Origin: Bacteriovoracaceae bacterium
GTDB taxonomy: Bacteria > Bdellovibrionota > Bacteriovoracia > Bacteriovoracales > Bacteriovoracaceae
DNA: 64,000 bases
Assembly (NCBI GenBank): GCA_028101965.1
Contig: JAOHMI010000006.1
Location: 1-64,000 of the forward strand
Reading direction: 5' to 3'
Part shown: positions 53,325 through 63,740 of the stretch, one piece after another
Position numbering within the stretch: the first letter of the stretch is position 1
Layout: each line of letters opens with the position of its first letter
The notes under the pieces: generated by a model
What the model saw: the letters and a program-made list of their open reading frames with translations, nothing else
Databases searched by the model: none
What the model was told of the DNA's origin: nothing
Position numbers and translations under genes: made by a program

Positions 53325-54749
53325 CTAAGTACCACAAAAAGTTTGATGAACAATTTCATGACTATGGGGAGGCTGAGTAAAATCAATATATTTCGCATCT
53401 TCGAAATAAGGTTTTTGCAAGGCTTCAACCATTTCATGAAAAAAAGAATAATCACCTTCCAATGAATTTTGAATAGCTTTTTCTACCAAATGATTTCTCG
53501 GAATAAGATAAGGATTGTTTTGATTTCTGATTTTAATTTGTTCTTCATAAGAGAATTTATCTAACTTTATTCTATTAGTTAAACTTAAAATTCTCTCATC
53601 ATTACTTTCAAATAATAAATTATGAATATTTCGAAAACTGTTTGTGAAATCCAATTTGTTCTCTTCTAAATAACTTAAAAAAGACTTAAATAATTCGGTA
53701 TCCCCTGTTTGAACTTCTGAAAATCCAAATTTAACTGAAAAAACCTGTGTCCACTCTTTTTCGAAGTACAACTCTAATTCGGCAAACTCTTGCATAAACT
53801 TTTCTTTAAGTTTCTCTGGTGTCTCATTCAATAATGGTATAAAGCAATTTGCCAAAACAGACAGATTCCAAAGAGCAATATTTCCTTGGTTATCATATTG
53901 ATATCGTCCTTGATGATCAATGGAACTAAAGACTTTTGAAAAGCTAAATTGATCCATGAAAGCACAAGGACCATAGTCTATGGTTTCACCACTAATAGAA
54001 GTATTATCAGTATTCATCACACCATGAATAAACCCTATGCCCATCCACTTTGCGACTAAACTTAATTTTTTTCGAGCAATTTTTTGAAATAATTTGAAGT
54101 ATAAATCCTTTTCATTTTTAAGTTCAGGGTAAAATCGTTGAATAACATAATCTGCAAGCTTCCTTAAACTCTTCTCATCTTGACGGTAAAGAAAATACTC
54201 AAAGGTTCCTACTCTAATATGGCCGCGGGCCACACGAGTAAAAACTGCTCCAGGCAATGAACTCTCTCTAAAAACCTCTTCCCCACTCAATGTTATGGCC
54301 AGAGCTCGAGTTGTTGGGATATTTAAGGCGTGCATTGCTTCTGATAAGATATATTCACGAACTGCCGGCCCTAAACTTGAGCGCCCATCACCCCGCCTTG
54401 AGAAAGGAGTCTGCCCCGCCCCTTTCAATTGGATATCAAAAAACCTATTATCGCTCTCAACTTCTCCTAATAAAATCGCTCTACCATCTCCTAGTTGAGG
54501 GACCATGTGGCCGAACTGATGACCGGCATAGGCCATCGCGATTGGTTTAGAATTCTCCATAATAGTTTTACCGGAAAATATATCGGCTAAAACTTCATCC
54601 GTAGATTTTTCTATATCGATATTTAAATCAAGAGCTAATTTATGATTAAATTTGATCAAAAAAGGTCTTTTAGCCACAGAGGGTTCAACCCTTTTTGAAA
54701 ATGATGAACCTAAGTCAAAATATGTGTTTTTTAAATTAATTTTCATCAA
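53325..54749 (-). CDS. selO: SelO/YdiU protein adenylyltransferase
   Basis: QLGDGRAILLGEV, LKGAGQTPFSRRGDGRSSLGPAVREYILSEAMHALNIPTTRALA, C-terminal QTFCGT. Confidence 0.95.
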   Translation of the reverse strand: MMKINLKNTYFDLGSSFSKRVEPSVAKRPFLIKFNHKLALDLNIDIEKSTDEVLADIFSGKTIMENSKPIAMAYAGHQFGHMVPQLGDGRAILLGEVESDNRFFDIQLKGAGQTPFSRRGDGRSSLGPAVREYILSEAMHALNIPTTRALAITLSGEEVFRESSLPGAVFTRVARGHIRVGTFEYFLYRQDEKSLRKLADYVIQRFYPELKNEKDLYFKLFQKIARKKLSLVAKWMGIGFIHGVMNTDNTSISGETIDYGPCAFMDQFSFSKVFSSIDHQGRYQYDNQGNIALWNLSVLANCFIPLLNETPEKLKEKFMQEFAELELYFEKEWTQVFSVKFGFSEVQTGDTELFKSFLSYLEENKLDFTNSFRNIHNLLFESNDERILSLTNRIKLDKFSYEEQIKIRNQNNPYLIPRNHLVEKAIQNSLEGDYSFFHEMVEALQKPYFEDAKYIDFTQPPHSHEIVHQTFCGT

Positions 54750-55449: not shown

Positions 55450-55866
55450 CTAGGCACTTACAATAACTATGGGACACTCTGCAGACTTATCCTTTAGATG
55501 CTTAGACACTTCATTTATATGCTTACCAGCATCCCTTCCCATAACAACTAAATCTATCCCCTGTTCTTTGATCATTTGATAAATAACATTTTTTAAAGAC
55601 CCAATTTTTAAATGAGTTTCCACATCGATGGTTTCAGTTTTAGTCAATTGCTCACTGTAATCTTTTGCTCTCTCCAACCCTTTCATTGCCATCTCTTTTA
55701 TACGATCATTCATATCGATAATATTATTACCGTCAGATTTCTGCACCATATAGGTATTAAGTAAATGAATCTTAGAAGGAGACTTATCCTTGAAGAAATT
55801 GACTGCAAAGTCGATTGCTTTTTGAGAATCATGAGAAAAATCTGTGGGAACTAAAATACGTACCAT
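55450..55866 (-). CDS. Universal stress protein (UspA family)
   Basis: ILVPTDFSHDSQKAIDFAV ... IDLVVMGRDAGKHI. Confidence 0.88.
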   Translation of the reverse strand: MVRILVPTDFSHDSQKAIDFAVNFFKDKSPSKIHLLNTYMVQKSDGNNIIDMNDRIKEMAMKGLERAKDYSEQLTKTETIDVETHLKIGSLKNVIYQMIKEQGIDLVVMGRDAGKHINEVSKHLKDKSAECPIVIVSA

Positions 55867-55923
55867 AGACTAATTTTACGGAAATTTTGCTAATTATTTG
55901 ATGATTTATAAGATTAAAGAAGT

Positions 55924-55937
55924 CTGATTATTATCAG
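55924..55937. promoter_or_regulatory. FNR/CRP-family-type palindrome upstream of a USP gene
   Basis: CTGAT-TATT-ATCAG, perfect dyad. Confidence 0.65.
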
Positions 55938-55958
55938 TTTAACCAGAATATCATAGTA

Positions 55959-57017
55959 TTAATGGCGAATCTCTGAAAGTGAACTTGAATCCAAGATTAT
56001 TATATCTCGGCCCTCTACGGCAATAAACCCATCTTCTTTGAACTCACTAAGGCATCGTATTACGGTTTCTGACGCAGTTCCAACCATCGAAGCAAGATCG
56101 TCTCGAGTAATTTTGATTCGAGTATTTTCTGATTCTTCCTTGGTAAACCGTTTTTCCAAGTCAAGTAAAGCTTCTGCCGCACGCTTGCGAACAGTATCAT
56201 AAGCCATACTTAAGAGTTGCCTCTCACGATCTTCTAAATTGCGAGAAAGAATTTTAATAAACTTTATGGCCACATCTCGGTTCTTATAGACAAGCTCCAT
56301 GAAATCTTGCCGAGGGATTTTGCAAACTTCACTATCTTCCAAAGTAATAGCACTTTCTCGGTAATCTCTTTTTTCAAATAATGGGTTTAAACCAAAAAAG
56401 TCATTTTGCTTATATATATCTGTGACATATTCTTTTCCATCATCGTGGTTACGAAATGTTTTTACTTTACCTGAAGCTAGAAAATATAAATATTGGGGGG
56501 TGTCCCCAGAATGATATAAAATTGTTTTTTTCTTTAATTTAATTTTTGGTCGATCTTGAGATAGTGCTTCAAGTTCTTTATTTCCTTTAGCTTCTTCAAT
56601 AAATTGGTTTAGACCATCTAAATTATCTGAAAAATTCTTTTTAATGAGTTCATTCTTTTTAAAGCGAATTTCGATTGCACGAAGCAATTCCATTTCATCA
56701 TAAGGCTTAGTGATATAATCGTCTGCACCTAGCTCCATACCTTGTCGAACTTCACTCTTTTCAGCTTTTGCGGTAAGAAAAATAAAAGGAATACTTGCAG
56801 TACTTGGATCTTTAGAAAGTAAATGAAGAACACCATAACCATCAATCTCGGGCATCATAATATCACAAATAATTAAATCAGGATCTTCTTCTTTAGCTTT
56901 TTTATATCCAGCTTTACCATTTTCAGCAGTCACTGCTTTAAAATTTGCCAGTTCTAAAATTTCTGCTGTATTTTCTCTCATCACTTGATCATCTTCAATT
57001 ATCAATATCTTCTTCAT
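55959..57017 (-). CDS. Receiver domain fused to CRP/FNR-type cNMP-binding and HTH domains
   Basis: Receiver: ILIIEDDQVMRENTAEIL...LIICDIMMPEIDGYG...KPYDEMEL; CRP: LYHSGDTPQYLYFLASGKVKTF; HTH: TRDDLASMVGTASETVIRCLSEFKEDG-type. Confidence 0.9.
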   Translation of the reverse strand: MKKILIIEDDQVMRENTAEILELANFKAVTAENGKAGYKKAKEEDPDLIICDIMMPEIDGYGVLHLLSKDPSTASIPFIFLTAKAEKSEVRQGMELGADDYITKPYDEMELLRAIEIRFKKNELIKKNFSDNLDGLNQFIEEAKGNKELEALSQDRPKIKLKKKTILYHSGDTPQYLYFLASGKVKTFRNHDDGKEYVTDIYKQNDFFGLNPLFEKRDYRESAITLEDSEVCKIPRQDFMELVYKNRDVAIKFIKILSRNLEDRERQLLSMAYDTVRKRAAEALLDLEKRFTKEESENTRIKITRDDLASMVGTASETVIRCLSEFKEDGFIAVEGRDIIILDSSSLSEIRH

Positions 57018-58261
57018 ACTATTAATTCCTTTGGCAAAATTACCTTAAAAGTTGTACCTACATCTTGTGCACTTTCAAAGTTTATATGCCCATTTAAATA
57101 TTCCAAATATTTAACCACAATACTCAACCCAAGACCAGTTCCCTGAATATTTGTTACATTTCCCGCTCGGAAAAACCTCTCAAAGAGGTGCTTTTGCTCA
57201 CTTTCAGGGATTCCAATTCCAAAATCTTGAACTTTTAAAGTAAAGGTTTTTCCAGATAGACTTGCCGAAATGATAATTGGCCTGTCTTTTGGGGAGTACT
57301 TAACTGAATTTGATAACAGGTTAGTTAAAATATTTTTAATCATTTCACTATCTTGATAAACTTCAAAGGAATCATTTTCAAATTGAGTTTCAATTTCATG
57401 ATACTCAGTGGCTTGAATATCCTGAAACTCTCGAACAAAGTTTCTTAGAAACTGAGGCAAATTAAATAAATGTGCATTTGGAGTAATCTTTTTTTGTTCT
57501 AGTTTATCTAATGATAAGAAATCATTTAATATTGAAGTAAGACCTTTGACAGACTTTCTAATCGTATCGGTGTGTTTCTTTGTTTTATCAAATTTTTCTA
57601 ATCCAATGTATTTTTCGATTAAAGAATTCGAAGAAAGTATCCCCCCTAAAGGAGTACGAAACTCATGAGAAGCCATACTGACAAAACGAGATTTAAGTTC
57701 ACTCAGCTCTTTTTCTTTCTCTAGAGACTCTTGAACCTTTTTTTCACTTTCAATTCTTTGTTGGATTTCAGACTCAAGATCATCGTTACTGTGACTAAGT
57801 TCAATAAGTGCTTGAGATAATTCCTTTGTACGTTCATCAATTTTTTTCTCTAACTCTTCGGTTTGTTCTTGAAGCTTATCTTTGATTTTTTTATTTTCAG
57901 TAATATCATTTATGAAGCTAACTACATATAAGTGGTTATTAACTTCATAGTAAGAAAGACTAACCTCAACGAAAAACTCACTCCCATCTTTTCTCATGGC
58001 CATTAAATTCATTCCTGCTCCCATGGAGCGAGGAGAAGGATTCTGCATATAGTTCTTTCGGTGTCCAATATGCTTAGTTCGAATTTTAGCGGGAAGGAGA
58101 ATTTCAATATCTTGCAGATCCATTTCACCGGATTCGAAACCAAAGATTCTTTCCGCAAATGGATTCACCATCTGCATCTTCCCTTCATTATCACAAATGA
58201 TAATGCCAAGACTGGCATGCTCAAACAAAGCTTTGAGAATAACTTGATCTTTTCCTACCAT
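57014..58261 (-). CDS. PAS-domain sensor histidine kinase
   Basis: PAS (LGIIICDNEGKMQMVNPFAERIFGFE), H-box VSMASHEFRTPLGGI, N box ILTNLLSNSVKYSP, FERFFRAGNVTNIQGTGLGLSIV. Confidence 0.93.
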   Translation of the reverse strand: MVGKDQVILKALFEHASLGIIICDNEGKMQMVNPFAERIFGFESGEMDLQDIEILLPAKIRTKHIGHRKNYMQNPSPRSMGAGMNLMAMRKDGSEFFVEVSLSYYEVNNHLYVVSFINDITENKKIKDKLQEQTEELEKKIDERTKELSQALIELSHSNDDLESEIQQRIESEKKVQESLEKEKELSELKSRFVSMASHEFRTPLGGILSSNSLIEKYIGLEKFDKTKKHTDTIRKSVKGLTSILNDFLSLDKLEQKKITPNAHLFNLPQFLRNFVREFQDIQATEYHEIETQFENDSFEVYQDSEMIKNILTNLLSNSVKYSPKDRPIIISASLSGKTFTLKVQDFGIGIPESEQKHLFERFFRAGNVTNIQGTGLGLSIVVKYLEYLNGHINFESAQDVGTTFKVILPKELIV

Positions 58262-58354
58262 ATAATTTCCTAGAGATATTACTTATCATCCTAAGACCCA
58301 ACGAGTCAATATTATAAACTAATCCCTCGAAATACTCAGAAACCAAAACAGTAA

Positions 58355-58810
58355 TTATTCATTTGTCTCTCGTAAAATAATTAGCTCACATGGTGCGTGA
58401 CGAACCATATACTCTGCAAGCGAACTGGAAAATAAAGATTCAACACCTTTTTTACCTCGAGTGCTTACGGCCATAACACTAATATCATTCTCTTGTGCGT
58501 AGTCTTTTAAACCAGTTTTTGGCGATGAAACAAGTAGACAATCATATACAAGTTTAATTCCTTGAGCGATTGGTCCCAGATCAGCTTCTAAAGTCTTCAT
58601 TACTTGTAAGGTTGATTCTTTAATTTTTTGAAATTCTTCCTCGGAAGGAAATTTTTGAATGTAAAACAAATCCGAATAAACTTGAATTTGAAAAGCATGA
58701 ATTAAGTGAATTTCTGTAAACTCATTTAAATTAAGCTCTCTTAAATGCTTGCGATATATATTAAGTGATTGATCCGTTAGATCCACGCATACCATTAATT
58801 TTTTATTCAT
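58355..58810 (-). CDS. Universal stress protein (UspA family)
   Basis: N-terminal beta strand MVCVDLTD and C-terminal MAVSTRGKKGVESLFSSSLAEYMVRHAPCELIILR. Confidence 0.87.
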   Translation of the reverse strand: MNKKLMVCVDLTDQSLNIYRKHLRELNLNEFTEIHLIHAFQIQVYSDLFYIQKFPSEEEFQKIKESTLQVMKTLEADLGPIAQGIKLVYDCLLVSSPKTGLKDYAQENDISVMAVSTRGKKGVESLFSSSLAEYMVRHAPCELIILRETNE

Positions 58811-58889
58811 GCCTTAATCCTTTGTTAATTACATATAACAAGATAAAGAAGAAACCTCTTTATATATATGATCGTTAGAACCAATAAGT

Positions 58890-58903
58890 CTGATCTATAT
58901 CAG
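58890..58903. promoter_or_regulatory. FNR/CRP-family-type palindrome between divergent USP genes
   Basis: CTGAT-CTAT-ATCAG, perfect dyad. Confidence 0.65.
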
Positions 58904-58982
58904 GAAATCCTCTGGAAACAGTCATAATAATTGAACTAAATTTATCGATAATAGTAATGAACCGAGCAACAAAGGAAAATGA

Positions 58983-59873
58983 GTGAGTAAACCAGAAATG
59001 TTAGTGGCCATCGACCTAAGTAATTTCTCCCAAACAGTTATAAAGGCTGCCTTCGAATATTGTGAGAAAATGAACTATTCACCAACCTTTATCTATGTCG
59101 ACCAACTCTTAGCAGAGTTTCGTCCTTCTGAGTTCATTTTAAAACATACCGATATAACAGAAGTGAGAAAAACTGATCTTGAAGAAGAAAAAAAAGAGAA
59201 ACTAATCAAGCTTTTTAGCAAAGAATCAATTCCAAGCTATACTTTTGAAGTCTGGAAAGGTCATCCAGTGGATGGGATTCTCAATTCGATCAATAACAAC
59301 CAATCTAAGCTCCTCTTTACTGGGTTAAGAGGTCACAATCGGTTACATCAATTTTTCTTAGGAAGTGTTGCTCAAAGACTAATAGAAATGTGCCCCATCC
59401 CCCAAATTGCCATCCATGAAAACTTCACTGGCTTCCCTCAAAAGCCACTATTGTGTATCGATGGAACAGATTCATCAAAGATTGATAGATTCTCCATGCT
59501 CTATGACATGGTAAAAATATCAGAGGGCCGATTAGATCTCCTCCACATAATTAACTTGTCAATGGTGTTCGATTTTATCCAAGGTCAAAGTGAGGGAGAA
59601 GTTTTTAACAAGGCCATTAAAACTCTTGAACTTAAAGCCATGGATAAATTGCAAAAAGCTTATTTGAGTTGCCAGTTTTCTTATAACATTAAGGTCAGTG
59701 CTGATTATTCTCTGCCGGAGGGTGAGCACATTTTAAAAACAGCAACAATGAACGAAAATGACCTCATTGTCCTGGGCTCAAATCAATATAAAGGCTTAAA
59801 GAAATTTTTTATGGGTAGTACTACGAATTTTATCGCCAAAGAAGCGTGCATGTCTATAATGATAGTTAAATAG
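58983..59873 (+). CDS. Tandem universal stress protein
   Basis: Two USP repeats, e.g. LLFTGLRGHNRLHQFFLGSVAQRLIEMCPIPQIAIHE and LIVLGSNQYKGLKKFFMGSTTNFIAKEACMSIMIVK; GTG start. Confidence 0.87.
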   Translation: MSKPEMLVAIDLSNFSQTVIKAAFEYCEKMNYSPTFIYVDQLLAEFRPSEFILKHTDITEVRKTDLEEEKKEKLIKLFSKESIPSYTFEVWKGHPVDGILNSINNNQSKLLFTGLRGHNRLHQFFLGSVAQRLIEMCPIPQIAIHENFTGFPQKPLLCIDGTDSSKIDRFSMLYDMVKISEGRLDLLHIINLSMVFDFIQGQSEGEVFNKAIKTLELKAMDKLQKAYLSCQFSYNIKVSADYSLPEGEHILKTATMNENDLIVLGSNQYKGLKKFFMGSTTNFIAKEACMSIMIVK

Positions 59874-59885
59874 GAAATTTTATCG

Positions 59886-60353
59886 GTGAAACTCCTTCAT
59901 AGCGGAATTCGTTTTAATAAAATCATTATTAGGTTGATATTTAGTCGATCTTTTTTCCTTATTACTGTGATGGGCAATTTAATCATAATCGCTTTCTCTC
60001 TATTGATCTATGCCATCGAAGCAAGCAGCAATCCTTCTATTGAGTCTTACTTAGATGCTCTATGGTGGGCTTTTGCTACTGCCACAACAGTTGGTTATGG
60101 AGATATTATCCCAGGAACGCCTCTAGGAAAAATAGTGGGAATTTTCCTTATGCTAACTGGAACCGCTCTGTTTGCCAGCTACACGGCTTTATTTGCGCAA
60201 GCAATTTTAGAGGATGAAATTTTTCGCTTTAAGTATAAAGACAAGGAAGATAAAGACGATGATTTAATTAAAGAATTAAAAAAGCACCAAGAGTTTCTTA
60301 GTCGGCAGATTAAGCATTATGAGTCAAACAAAGGAATTAACTCCAAAAAGTAA
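59886..60353 (+). CDS. Two-TM potassium channel family protein
   Basis: Selectivity filter ATTVGYGDIIPGTPLGKIVGIFLML. Confidence 0.9.
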   Translation: MKLLHSGIRFNKIIIRLIFSRSFFLITVMGNLIIIAFSLLIYAIEASSNPSIESYLDALWWAFATATTVGYGDIIPGTPLGKIVGIFLMLTGTALFASYTALFAQAILEDEIFRFKYKDKEDKDDDLIKELKKHQEFLSRQIKHYESNKGINSKK

Positions 60354-60408: not shown

Positions 60409-60726
60409 TTAAATATTTACAGCATACTCTGACACTGATTCATGATCGATATGACTTTTTTTATGATGAAACTGATTTTCCAACTTCTTTAAGACTTCAT
60501 CAAAAGACTTATATAAATCATCAGAAGTACCCTTAGCATAAAAATACCGATGACCGGCCCTTAAAGTAACAATAGAAGAATGGGCATTTTTTTCGACGGA
60601 ACAGGTCCATTGGATATCAATTTTTTCTGTATCAAAATACTTTTTTATATGCTCAGATTTATCTTGAATCCTCTCCTTGAGCGCAGGAGTTGAATCTGCA
60701 TGAAGAAATGAAATATTTAATGTCAT
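60409..60726 (-). CDS. hpf: Ribosome hibernation promoting factor (HPF/RaiA family)
   Basis: ALKERIQDKSEHIKKYFD... AHSSIVTLRAGHRYFYAKGTSDDLYKSFDEVLKKLENQFHHKKSH. Confidence 0.85.
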   Translation of the reverse strand: MTLNISFLHADSTPALKERIQDKSEHIKKYFDTEKIDIQWTCSVEKNAHSSIVTLRAGHRYFYAKGTSDDLYKSFDEVLKKLENQFHHKKSHIDHESVSEYAVNI

Positions 60727-60741
60727 AATCTTTCCTTTAAA

Positions 60742-61281
60742 TTACTCTTCTGCTTGTCCACGAAGAATTTCAATCAACGCATTTAAACCATCTGTGGAAG
60801 TGAATATCCCTTCAAGCTCACCTATGTCATTTACCACTAAAGCTGATCCAATTTTTCGGCGAGACATCTCAAATGCCACTTCATCAAGTGAAGTTCCTAT
60901 TTGTACGCAATAAGGATCTTCTACCATTATATCACTTGCTTTTAGATCCAACCCTTTCTCAAACCCTTTAATTAGTTTGACGTCTCTATCACTTATAATT
61001 CCCACAGGTCGGTTATCTTTTACCACTGGTACGTGTCTTATTCTTTCTTGAACCATAAGTTCATATATTTGAGTGAATGATGTTTCCCCTCTCACGACAC
61101 CATTTATGGGACTAGTGTATTCATCAATTGAAATATTCATTTGTGACATTTCAGTATCCTCCGTTGCTAACATAGTGCCGGCACCTGCCAGAAATAATAA
61201 TGATCCAAAAGGAAAGAACACATGATTTGTATCAGGCTTTTGCCCGATCCTCATATCATTAAAATCCATGATGATCATCAT
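60742..61281 (-). CDS. CBS-domain pair protein
   Basis: RIRHVPVVKDNRPVGIISDRDVKL and VAFEMSRRKIGSALVVNDIGELEGIFTSTDGL. Confidence 0.9.
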   Translation of the reverse strand: MMIIMDFNDMRIGQKPDTNHVFFPFGSLLFLAGAGTMLATEDTEMSQMNISIDEYTSPINGVVRGETSFTQIYELMVQERIRHVPVVKDNRPVGIISDRDVKLIKGFEKGLDLKASDIMVEDPYCVQIGTSLDEVAFEMSRRKIGSALVVNDIGELEGIFTSTDGLNALIEILRGQAEE

Positions 61282-61415
61282 GTTTAATACCTCATGTTAT
61301 ACCGATAATGACTGTACGTTGAAAACAGATAGCTAGAGCTGTCTTTAAGAAAAAAACTTATTAAAAACAAGTAGATATAGTTTAAAAGGATCATGTTCAG
61401 ACTGGTTAGAATTGT

Positions 61416-63740
61416 ATGTTGGTTAAAAATAAAAAGCACTATACTTGTAAGCATTGTGGATCCTTTGCAGGCGAAGATGAAGTTATAATTGAAAACAATT
61501 TTCACTTTTGCTGTCATGGTTGCTTAACAGTTTTTAATTGCCTCAATGTAGGTGGTTTAGATAATTTTTATCATCTTATGGACTTAGAGGGTCAGTCTCC
61601 GCAAAAAGTTACTTCTGAAAATAAAGTTAAATACATGGCCGATGATCAGTTTTTACATAATTTTGGCCAGGGTCAAAATAAAAATACTTTTAATTTTTAT
61701 GTGCAAGGTATTACATGCTTAGCCTGCTCATGGGTATTTAAAAATATAACTGCTCTTAACGAAAAGATACAAAATTCAAATTTCCAACCGGAAAGCAACA
61801 TCCTTACATTAACCATGACCGATCGTTCTGAATTAGTGAATGTGGGAACTATTATTTATCAATTGGGTTACCAACTAGTTCCTTTAAAGAATGAATCGGA
61901 GGCAGAAAACATTTATCAAAAAGATAAAAGAAATGAGCTCATCCGTATTGGAGTAACCGCAGGCTTAATGATGAATCTGATGATTTATTCTGTGGCCATC
62001 TACGCTGGTGTCGATGGAAGTCTTAAAAGAATATTTGAGCACATAATGGCAGTGATGTACGCCCCCATACTTTTTTATAGTGCTATCCCCTTTCTTAAGA
62101 ACTTTATGTCATCTCTAAAAAGTCTACGATTTAACATCGACTTACCAATTTCTCTTTCCGTATTATTTGGGTCTATTTTTAGCTACTATAACTATTTTAA
62201 AGGCAGCGATTTATACTACTTTGATAGCATTGCTATGTTTATCTTTCTTATTCTTAGCACACGTCATTTTTTATCTTCACTCTATCATAATCAAATTAAG
62301 AGTAATTTCTTTCAAAATGCTTATGGAATCCAACAGATCTTAAAGCAATCATCTAAAATTTTCGTTTATAAACATATTAGCGATATAGCTCAAGGTGATA
62401 TTATTAAGGTCCCTCAGGGTGAAATAATTCCACTAGATGGAGTGGTTCTTAAAGGCCATAGCTACGTTAATGAGTCGCTTCTTACCGGAGAATCAACCCC
62501 GCTTCTCAAACATCGCGATTCAAAAGTAGTATCAGGGAGCATTAATTTATCTCATGACCTAGAACTACAAGTTAGCCATGACATGAATACAACAAGTTTT
62601 ACAAAATATCTTGATTCATTAAAAATCGACACGAGTCAATTAGATTCCTATTCTTATTTTGGACAAAAGTACTCTCTCTATTTATCCTTTATTTTTATAG
62701 TGGCATCTGCTGTATTATTTTTATATTTCCCTCAAGAACAAGCAATACCTAGAATACTTAGTTTACTCATAGTCTGCTGCCCATGTGCATTGGGAATAGG
62801 TATTCCTCTTGTAAGTTTGCTTAAAACTAAAAAATTGGCCAACAATGGAATCCTTTTAAAGAATAAAGCTGTCTATGAAAAGTTTCCGAATATTGAAACA
62901 ATCTTTTTTGATAAAACAGGAACTCTGACTTCAGGAGCATTTAAATTGGCAGAAATTGTGGGAGATCAAACTTTTCTTCCGCACTTAATCTCCTTGGAAA
63001 AACACTCCCACCACCCTATCGCTGTCTTTCTCGTGAACCATTTCACCTCTGTCCAGGATTATCTCGAAGTAGAAAATTTTAAAGAAATCCTTGGAGAAGG
63101 AGTCGAAGGTGATATCCAAGGACATCATTACAAAATTCATTCACTCTCTGATGAATCAATTGTGTTAATGAAAGGTTCACAGCAAGTACTCAAACTCATC
63201 CTTAAAGAAGAGATTGACCCAAATAATATTCAATTACTTAAAGATTTAAGCAAAAAATATAGAATAGAAATCATGTCAGGCGATCATCGCCAAAGAGTTA
63301 GTGATTTGATTGACCTGCTTCAAGTTAATCATCCAATTAAGTCTCAACACTCCCTGAAGCCTGAAGATAAAAAAAACTATATGAGAAAACAAAAAAACTC
63401 ATTATATGTAGGAGATGGGCTCAATGACATATGGGCCATGAAATACGCAGATCTTTCAATTTCACTAAATGCAGGAGAGCTAGTTAATGATAATTGTGAT
63501 GTGGTTTTTTTAGCCGGAAATCTAAACAAACTTAATTTCTTCATTAAAGAGATTAGACACCTGCATAGACTAATTCAAATAAATATCAGTTTTTCTATTT
63601 TTTACAATATATTGGGGTTCATCCTCTCAGTAACAGGGATGATTACACCTCTGATTGCAGCAGTGGCCATGCCTATAAGTTCGCTTATCGTAGTTAGCAA
63701 TAGCTTTCTCTTATCGCGAAAAGGGAGAATTAAGAAATGA
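61416..63740 (+). CDS. ccoI: CcoI/FixI-type copper-translocating P-type ATPase
   Basis: N-terminal Cys-rich CKHCGSFAGEDEVIIENNFHFCCHGC, GITCLACSW, CCPCALGIGIPL, FFDKTGTLTSG, VGDGLNDIWAM; followed by ccoS and ccoN. Confidence 0.94.
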   Translation: MLVKNKKHYTCKHCGSFAGEDEVIIENNFHFCCHGCLTVFNCLNVGGLDNFYHLMDLEGQSPQKVTSENKVKYMADDQFLHNFGQGQNKNTFNFYVQGITCLACSWVFKNITALNEKIQNSNFQPESNILTLTMTDRSELVNVGTIIYQLGYQLVPLKNESEAENIYQKDKRNELIRIGVTAGLMMNLMIYSVAIYAGVDGSLKRIFEHIMAVMYAPILFYSAIPFLKNFMSSLKSLRFNIDLPISLSVLFGSIFSYYNYFKGSDLYYFDSIAMFIFLILSTRHFLSSLYHNQIKSNFFQNAYGIQQILKQSSKIFVYKHISDIAQGDIIKVPQGEIIPLDGVVLKGHSYVNESLLTGESTPLLKHRDSKVVSGSINLSHDLELQVSHDMNTTSFTKYLDSLKIDTSQLDSYSYFGQKYSLYLSFIFIVASAVLFLYFPQEQAIPRILSLLIVCCPCALGIGIPLVSLLKTKKLANNGILLKNKAVYEKFPNIETIFFDKTGTLTSGAFKLAEIVGDQTFLPHLISLEKHSHHPIAVFLVNHFTSVQDYLEVENFKEILGEGVEGDIQGHHYKIHSLSDESIVLMKGSQQVLKLILKEEIDPNNIQLLKDLSKKYRIEIMSGDHRQRVSDLIDLLQVNHPIKSQHSLKPEDKKNYMRKQKNSLYVGDGLNDIWAMKYADLSISLNAGELVNDNCDVVFLAGNLNKLNFFIKEIRHLHRLIQINISFSIFYNILGFILSVTGMITPLIAAVAMPISSLIVVSNSFLLSRKGRIKK

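Follow-up and report, generated by a model that had tools for sequence, protein, structure and literature searches.

Genes and dyads of the locus

The window, a 64,000-nucleotide stretch of a Bacteriovoracaceae contig, carries a cluster of universal stress protein (USP) genes around a histidine kinase and a regulator that fuses a receiver to a CRP/FNR-type protein (Table 1). The first gene of a cbb3 oxidase cluster, encoding a CcoI-type P-type ATPase, follows to the right. Beyond the window (on L129) CcoI is followed by a CcoN-CcoO fusion, CcoP and CcoG, all named by sequence reading. The CcoN and CcoO parts, just past the window at L129:3897-6080, share one frame of 727 aa. An open reading frame at 53325-54749 of the window resembles SelO/YdiU, also by sequence reading.

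Table 1. Features of the USP, regulator and cbb3 region (positions in the window)
Feature	Position	Strand	Remarks
Universal stress protein	55450..55866	-	predicted target
Putative operator 1	55924..55937	-	CTGATAATAATCAG; ahead of the USP gene at 55450-55866; same place behind the receiver-CRP stop codon in orthologous loci
Receiver-CRP/FNR fusion regulator	55959..57017	-	PF00072 + PF00027 + PF13545; candidate phospho-acceptor Asp52; recognition helix SETVIR
PAS-HisKA-HATPase histidine kinase	57014..58261	-	shares 4 bp with the regulator gene; PAS closest to the heme PAS of FixL and DosP
Universal stress protein	58355..58810	-	first in a probable USP-kinase-regulator operon; predicted target (autoregulation)
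Putative operator 2	58890..58903	.	CTGATCTATATCAG; midpoint of divergent USP genes
Tandem universal stress protein	58983..59873	+	predicted target
Ion channel	59886..60353	+	PF07885; behind the tandem USP
Ribosome hibernation factor-like	60409..60726	-	PF02482
CBS-domain protein	60742..61173	-	mechanical ORF reaches 61281; true start about 61173 or 61149
Putative operator 3	61222..61235	-	CTGATACAAATCAT on the - strand; ahead of the CBS-hpf operon
Putative operator 4	61268..61281	+	ATGATGATCATCAT, then GTTTAA; faces the ccoI-cbb3 operon
CcoI-type P-type ATPase	61416..63740	+	first gene of a cbb3 oxidase cluster running past the window

The original prediction described two CTGAT-N4-ATCAG palindromes, each with AAGT upstream, on either side of a receiver-CRP fusion gene. 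Re-reading the sequence finds both in place (the first reads CTGATTATTATCAG on the forward strand), and the gene between them does encode a receiver, a cNMP-binding fold and a Crp helix-turn-helix. Together the two dyads bracket the USP, kinase and receiver-CRP genes. Read towards the genes, the flank becomes ATCAG-ACTT at both leftward promoters, and similar T-rich flanks occur at other sites. The centre of site 1 is 64 bp from the USP start at 55866, close to the 60 bp predicted. Site 2 lies exactly midway between the divergent USP genes, 86 bp from either start, and likely serves both the USP-kinase-regulator operon to its left and the USP-ion channel pair to its right.

The motif is real, although as first given it was too narrow. 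Corrected to [AC]TGA[TC]-N4-[AG]TCA[TG], it has at least two further sites in the window that the original prediction did not include, both between the CBS-hpf and ccoI-cbb3 operons. Homologues of the CBS-domain protein align only from residue 37-50 of the mechanical frame, which makes it most likely that neither site 3 (61222) nor site 4 (61268) is coding. Site 3 has a counterpart in a relative, G072, 78 bp before the CBS gene (L179:5961).

Motif abundance

The genome-wide frequency of the motif carries little of the signal. In the source assembly (2.78 Mb in 202 contigs, 66.6% complete) the exact palindrome occurs three times, which is the background expectation. Two of these copies are located in promoters 3 kb apart, and the third falls within a frame of 447 codons. 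A genome scan had been proposed as a check on the prediction; it thus returns a background frequency, together with promoter locations for the two copies considered here. Post hoc Poisson probabilities are about 5e-6 for two exact copies within 2.98 kb and about 3e-4 for four copies of TGAT-N4-ATCA within 5.9 kb; the latter core has a single copy in the window up to 55.5 kb and four in the 5.9 kb that follow. Sites with up to two mismatches are not enriched in the window (33 found, 33.6 expected). Across 32 genomes of the family, exact-motif counts show no correlation with presence of the regulator. Counting exact motifs was dropped as a way to probe the link to the regulator, the motif being too narrow and its matches mostly chance ones in coding DNA. 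Given the background abundance and the lack of an excess of two-mismatch sites, the signal resides in position and conservation.

Conservation and promoter geometry

Orthologues of the receiver-CRP protein (E <= 1e-70) are present in 14 of the 129 genomes of the class, spread over 10 of 48 genera, and in many Bacteroidota, Dyadobacter and Runella among them, where the loci fetched show 51-58% identity. The gene order kinase-regulator-USP is common to the window and part of the Bacteroidota. A de novo search for dyads near the regulator placed CTGAT-N4 at the top among 11 Bdellovibrionota loci (3 loci, 0 expected), and returned ATGAC-N4, ATGAT-N4 and overlapping registers among 76 Bacteroidota loci. 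In both phyla the broader dyad recurs directly behind the receiver-CRP gene. A site lies within 100 bp behind the regulator stop codon in 22 of 47 loci whose following gene runs in the same direction, and in 0 of 41 convergent loci (Fisher 9e-8; 1% in shuffles). In a subset below 75% identity, in which relatedness is reduced but not removed, the counts are 12/27 and 0/18 (P 0.0012). The dependence on strand fits an operator of the next gene and not a terminator or a coding signal. By this strict criterion 25 of the 47 same-strand loci are without a site; in some of them a dyad overlaps the stop codon or sits further off.

The first base of the half-site is A in 13 cases, C in 11, G in 3 and T in 1. 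The FNR-like geometry of the original prediction stands, and its "C in place of T" holds in the form "A or C in place of T": the base is indeed rarely T, though not strictly C. Behind the regulator gene of L053, L057-L059 and L061, tandem dyads 22 bp (two helical turns) apart precede a CcoI-type ATPase gene. G072 has two kinase-receiver-CRP-USP clusters (L179 and L180), with dyads at each.

The dyads also keep a fixed distance to promoter elements. When each site is oriented towards the gene downstream of it and distances are counted from the dyad centre to the start of the promoter box, the Bacteroidota element TAnnTTTG falls at exactly 29 nt for 19 of 124 sites, against a background of 0.28 per position. 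A second peak at 51 nt corresponds to a tandem site 22 bp upstream. In Bdellovibrionota, TATAAT-like hexamers gather at 28-29 nt, both at sites with the receiver-CRP regulator (6/35) and at sites beside an Fe-S FNR (9/24). Across 14 Bacteroidota genomes a pattern search returned 81 matches at the promoter spacing versus 15 at a spacing 4 longer. Of 30 matches fetched, 27 were outside called genes, and most lay a short way ahead of a gene; several precede hemN-like genes, one a ScdA/RIC-like and one a fumarase-like gene (names by sequence reading). A TAKNNT-spaced pattern, run on eight relatives with the spacer off by one, gave only 11 matches and was uninformative.

Within the window, hexamers matching at five of six positions start at exactly 29 nt from three centres: site 2 rightward (AATAAT, 58926-58931), site 3 leftward (TATTAT, 61194-61199) and site 4 rightward (GATAAT, 61304-61309). 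Leftward from site 2 there is TATAAA at 58859-58864. At the ideal 29 nt, site 1 offers no more than a weak hexamer (TCAAAT), the alternative being the -10-like AATAAT at 55893-55898, 32 nt from the centre. The sites combine a TGA-N6-TCA core with N4-spaced pentamers, and their position, judged from the spacing to promoter boxes, is that of class II operators centred near -41.5. That the dyads are chance palindromes is hardly credible: the background frequency of the exact motif and the missing excess of two-mismatch sites would suit this reading, but it is contradicted by the conservation of the sites at corresponding places, by their dependence on strand and by their phasing with promoters.

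The regulator and its partner kinase

By its architecture the regulator is a response regulator with a CRP-type output, a known class of proteins to which the window protein conforms in joining a receiver, a cNMP-binding fold and a Crp helix-turn-helix. Its receiver has the residues expected of PF00072 (Asp9/10, Asp52, Thr82, Lys104), including the candidate phospho-acceptor aspartate, and its gene overlaps that of the kinase. Neither the Fe-S ligands of FNR nor the cAMP ligands of CRP are retained. Of the four Fe-S cysteines of FNR (C20, C23, C29 and C122), the first three align with L or K/L/M, and by this test the protein is not an FNR; the CRP contacts to cAMP (E72, R82, S83, T127, S128) are replaced by Y, varied residues, E/D, R/K and E. 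The recognition helix, ETVIR, keeps the Glu and Arg of FNR and has Ile at the Ser212 equivalent in nearly all orthologues. It therefore departs from the E-x-x-S-R helix that reads TTGAT in FNR, with Ile for Ser and an operator whose first base is A or C.

The partner kinase has the H-box SHEFRTPL. Against solved structures its PAS domain matches the heme PAS domains of FixL and DosP best among named proteins, the very top match being an unnamed multi-sensor kinase. The proximal His of FixL is near-invariant across partner kinases and missing in one (L022). In the window kinase this His is aligned, and the distal Arg of FixL is replaced by Met; seven Bacteroidota partner kinases keep the full FixL pattern of His and Arg. 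The FixL-like PAS and the near-invariant His make low oxygen, or a redox cue related to it, the most likely signal. A His at this place is also found in PAS domains that are not known heme binders, and we see the chances that the kinase senses oxygen through heme as evenly balanced.

Which regulator uses the dyads?

The receiver-CRP protein is the best candidate to bind the dyads, as the original prediction supposed. The de novo dyads near its gene, their conserved position and their promoter spacing all point to it, and it is the sole HTH_Crp_2 protein above the cut-off in its own assembly. The most serious alternative assigns the operators to an Fe-S FNR, either ancestral or encoded by the third of the genome that is unassembled, with the receiver-CRP protein acting elsewhere or only sharing the sites. 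Most members of the family without the receiver-CRP protein have a standalone FNR of about 240 aa with C-x2-C, a third Cys nearby and an equivalent of C122, and all 34 standalone FNRs of relatives carry the Fe-S cysteines (C-x2-C and a shifted third Cys). Their recognition helix (ETLIR/ETVIR) is nearly that of the receiver-CRP protein and the same dyads precede neighbouring genes. The specificity is thus not unique to the fusion, and the site alone cannot identify its binder. An Fe-S FNR is found in 87 of the 129 class genomes, and five of the 14 genomes with the receiver-CRP protein have both. In one of them, G112, the two types adjoin: the Fe-S FNR gene (L183:6005-6859) comes immediately after the receiver-CRP and USP genes, in convergent orientation.

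We nevertheless regard this alternative as improbable. The Fe-S FNR is under-represented where the receiver-CRP protein occurs (5/14, versus 82/115 elsewhere; Fisher P 0.013), and the nine genomes that have the latter and not the former include G033 and G034, which are 99% and 98% complete. The dyads persist in the clusters of G014, G017, G034, G072, G074 and G119, all of which are without an Fe-S FNR, and in two phyla they accompany the receiver-CRP gene. Use of the sites by some other dimeric regulator, such as a LysR-type protein or a standalone CRP (G014 has one of 206 aa), is less probable still. Relatives do have further CRP-family genes, and a standalone gene of this kind, encoding 206 aa, has its own dyad, TTGAT-N4-GTCAA (L130:11942). 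However, that dyad begins with T, unlike the [AC] of the window sites, and suggests a distinct specificity; the source assembly has no other HTH_Crp_2 protein above the cut-off, and the geometry of the sites is FNR-like.

A putative two-component oxygen switch

We think it very probable that the dyads are FNR-type class II operators through which the receiver-CRP protein activates transcription, under the control of phosphorylation by the PAS kinase. In this scenario, low oxygen would alter the PAS kinase, which would transfer phosphate to Asp52 of the receiver, and the phosphorylated protein would bind as a dimer at [AC]TGA[TC]-N4-[AG]TCA[TG]. From -41.5 it may then contact RNA polymerase and activate the USP genes, its own USP-kinase-regulator operon, the CBS-hpf operon and the ccoI-cbb3 operon. 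Receiver phosphorylation, in place of an Fe-S cluster or cAMP, would set its activity. The best reading of the whole is a low-oxygen switch of a FixL-to-(FixJ+FNR) type that would read FNR operators and govern a USP, cbb3, HPF and HemN regulon.

The closest parallels lie in FNR and FnrL, in the FixL-FixJ-FixK cascade and in response regulators with a CRP-type output. The FnrL box is TTGAT-N4-ATCAA, and the alphaproteobacterial core FNR regulon comprises ccoNOQP, a P-type ATPase, uspA and hemN (PMC2908626); the regulon predicted here is of this type. The N4-spaced TGAT/ATCA dyad, the class II geometry and the Glu and Arg of the recognition helix are shared with FNR and FnrL as well. In contrast to these, the window protein has a receiver where they have the Fe-S N-terminus with its cysteines, Ile for Ser212, and an operator whose first base is A or C, not T. 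Like the FixL-FixJ-FixK cascade, the proposed switch would lead from a FixL-like PAS kinase to an FNR-type regulator of cbb3 genes; however, the rhizobial FixJ (with a LuxR-type output) and FixK are separate proteins, whereas the window protein joins the receiver and the FNR-type DNA-binding part.

The open literature searched (subscription papers were outside its scope) yielded no operator or regulon for the receiver-CRP orthologous group, and no description of CTGAT/ATCAG in connection with FNR or of FNR in Bdellovibrio. For this widespread group, uncharacterised in that literature, the present analysis thus proposes a specific operator together with its promoter geometry and regulon. It also points to a natural exchange, in which a global oxygen switch appears to have received a new sensor with its DNA code unaltered. 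Such regulon rewiring can be tested on relatives, some of which have the Fe-S form, some the receiver form, and others both or neither.

Origin of the receiver-CRP regulator

In a phylogenetic tree whose root is not fixed, the receiver-CRP proteins form one group. The Bdellovibrionota members, together with one MAG labelled Deltaproteobacteria, make up a single clade beside two Flavobacteriales, inside the Bacteroidota. The regulator was thus probably acquired from Bacteroidota, and the tree fits a single transfer. Whether the transferred two-component FNR then took over the regulon and operators of a resident Fe-S FNR in some Bacteriovoracaceae-like genomes, with FixL-like sensing replacing the Fe-S cluster, is a question on which we would lean neither way. 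One locus labelled Thalassobius (L094) has a receiver-CRP cluster of the Bacteroidota type and is probably a mis-binned contig.
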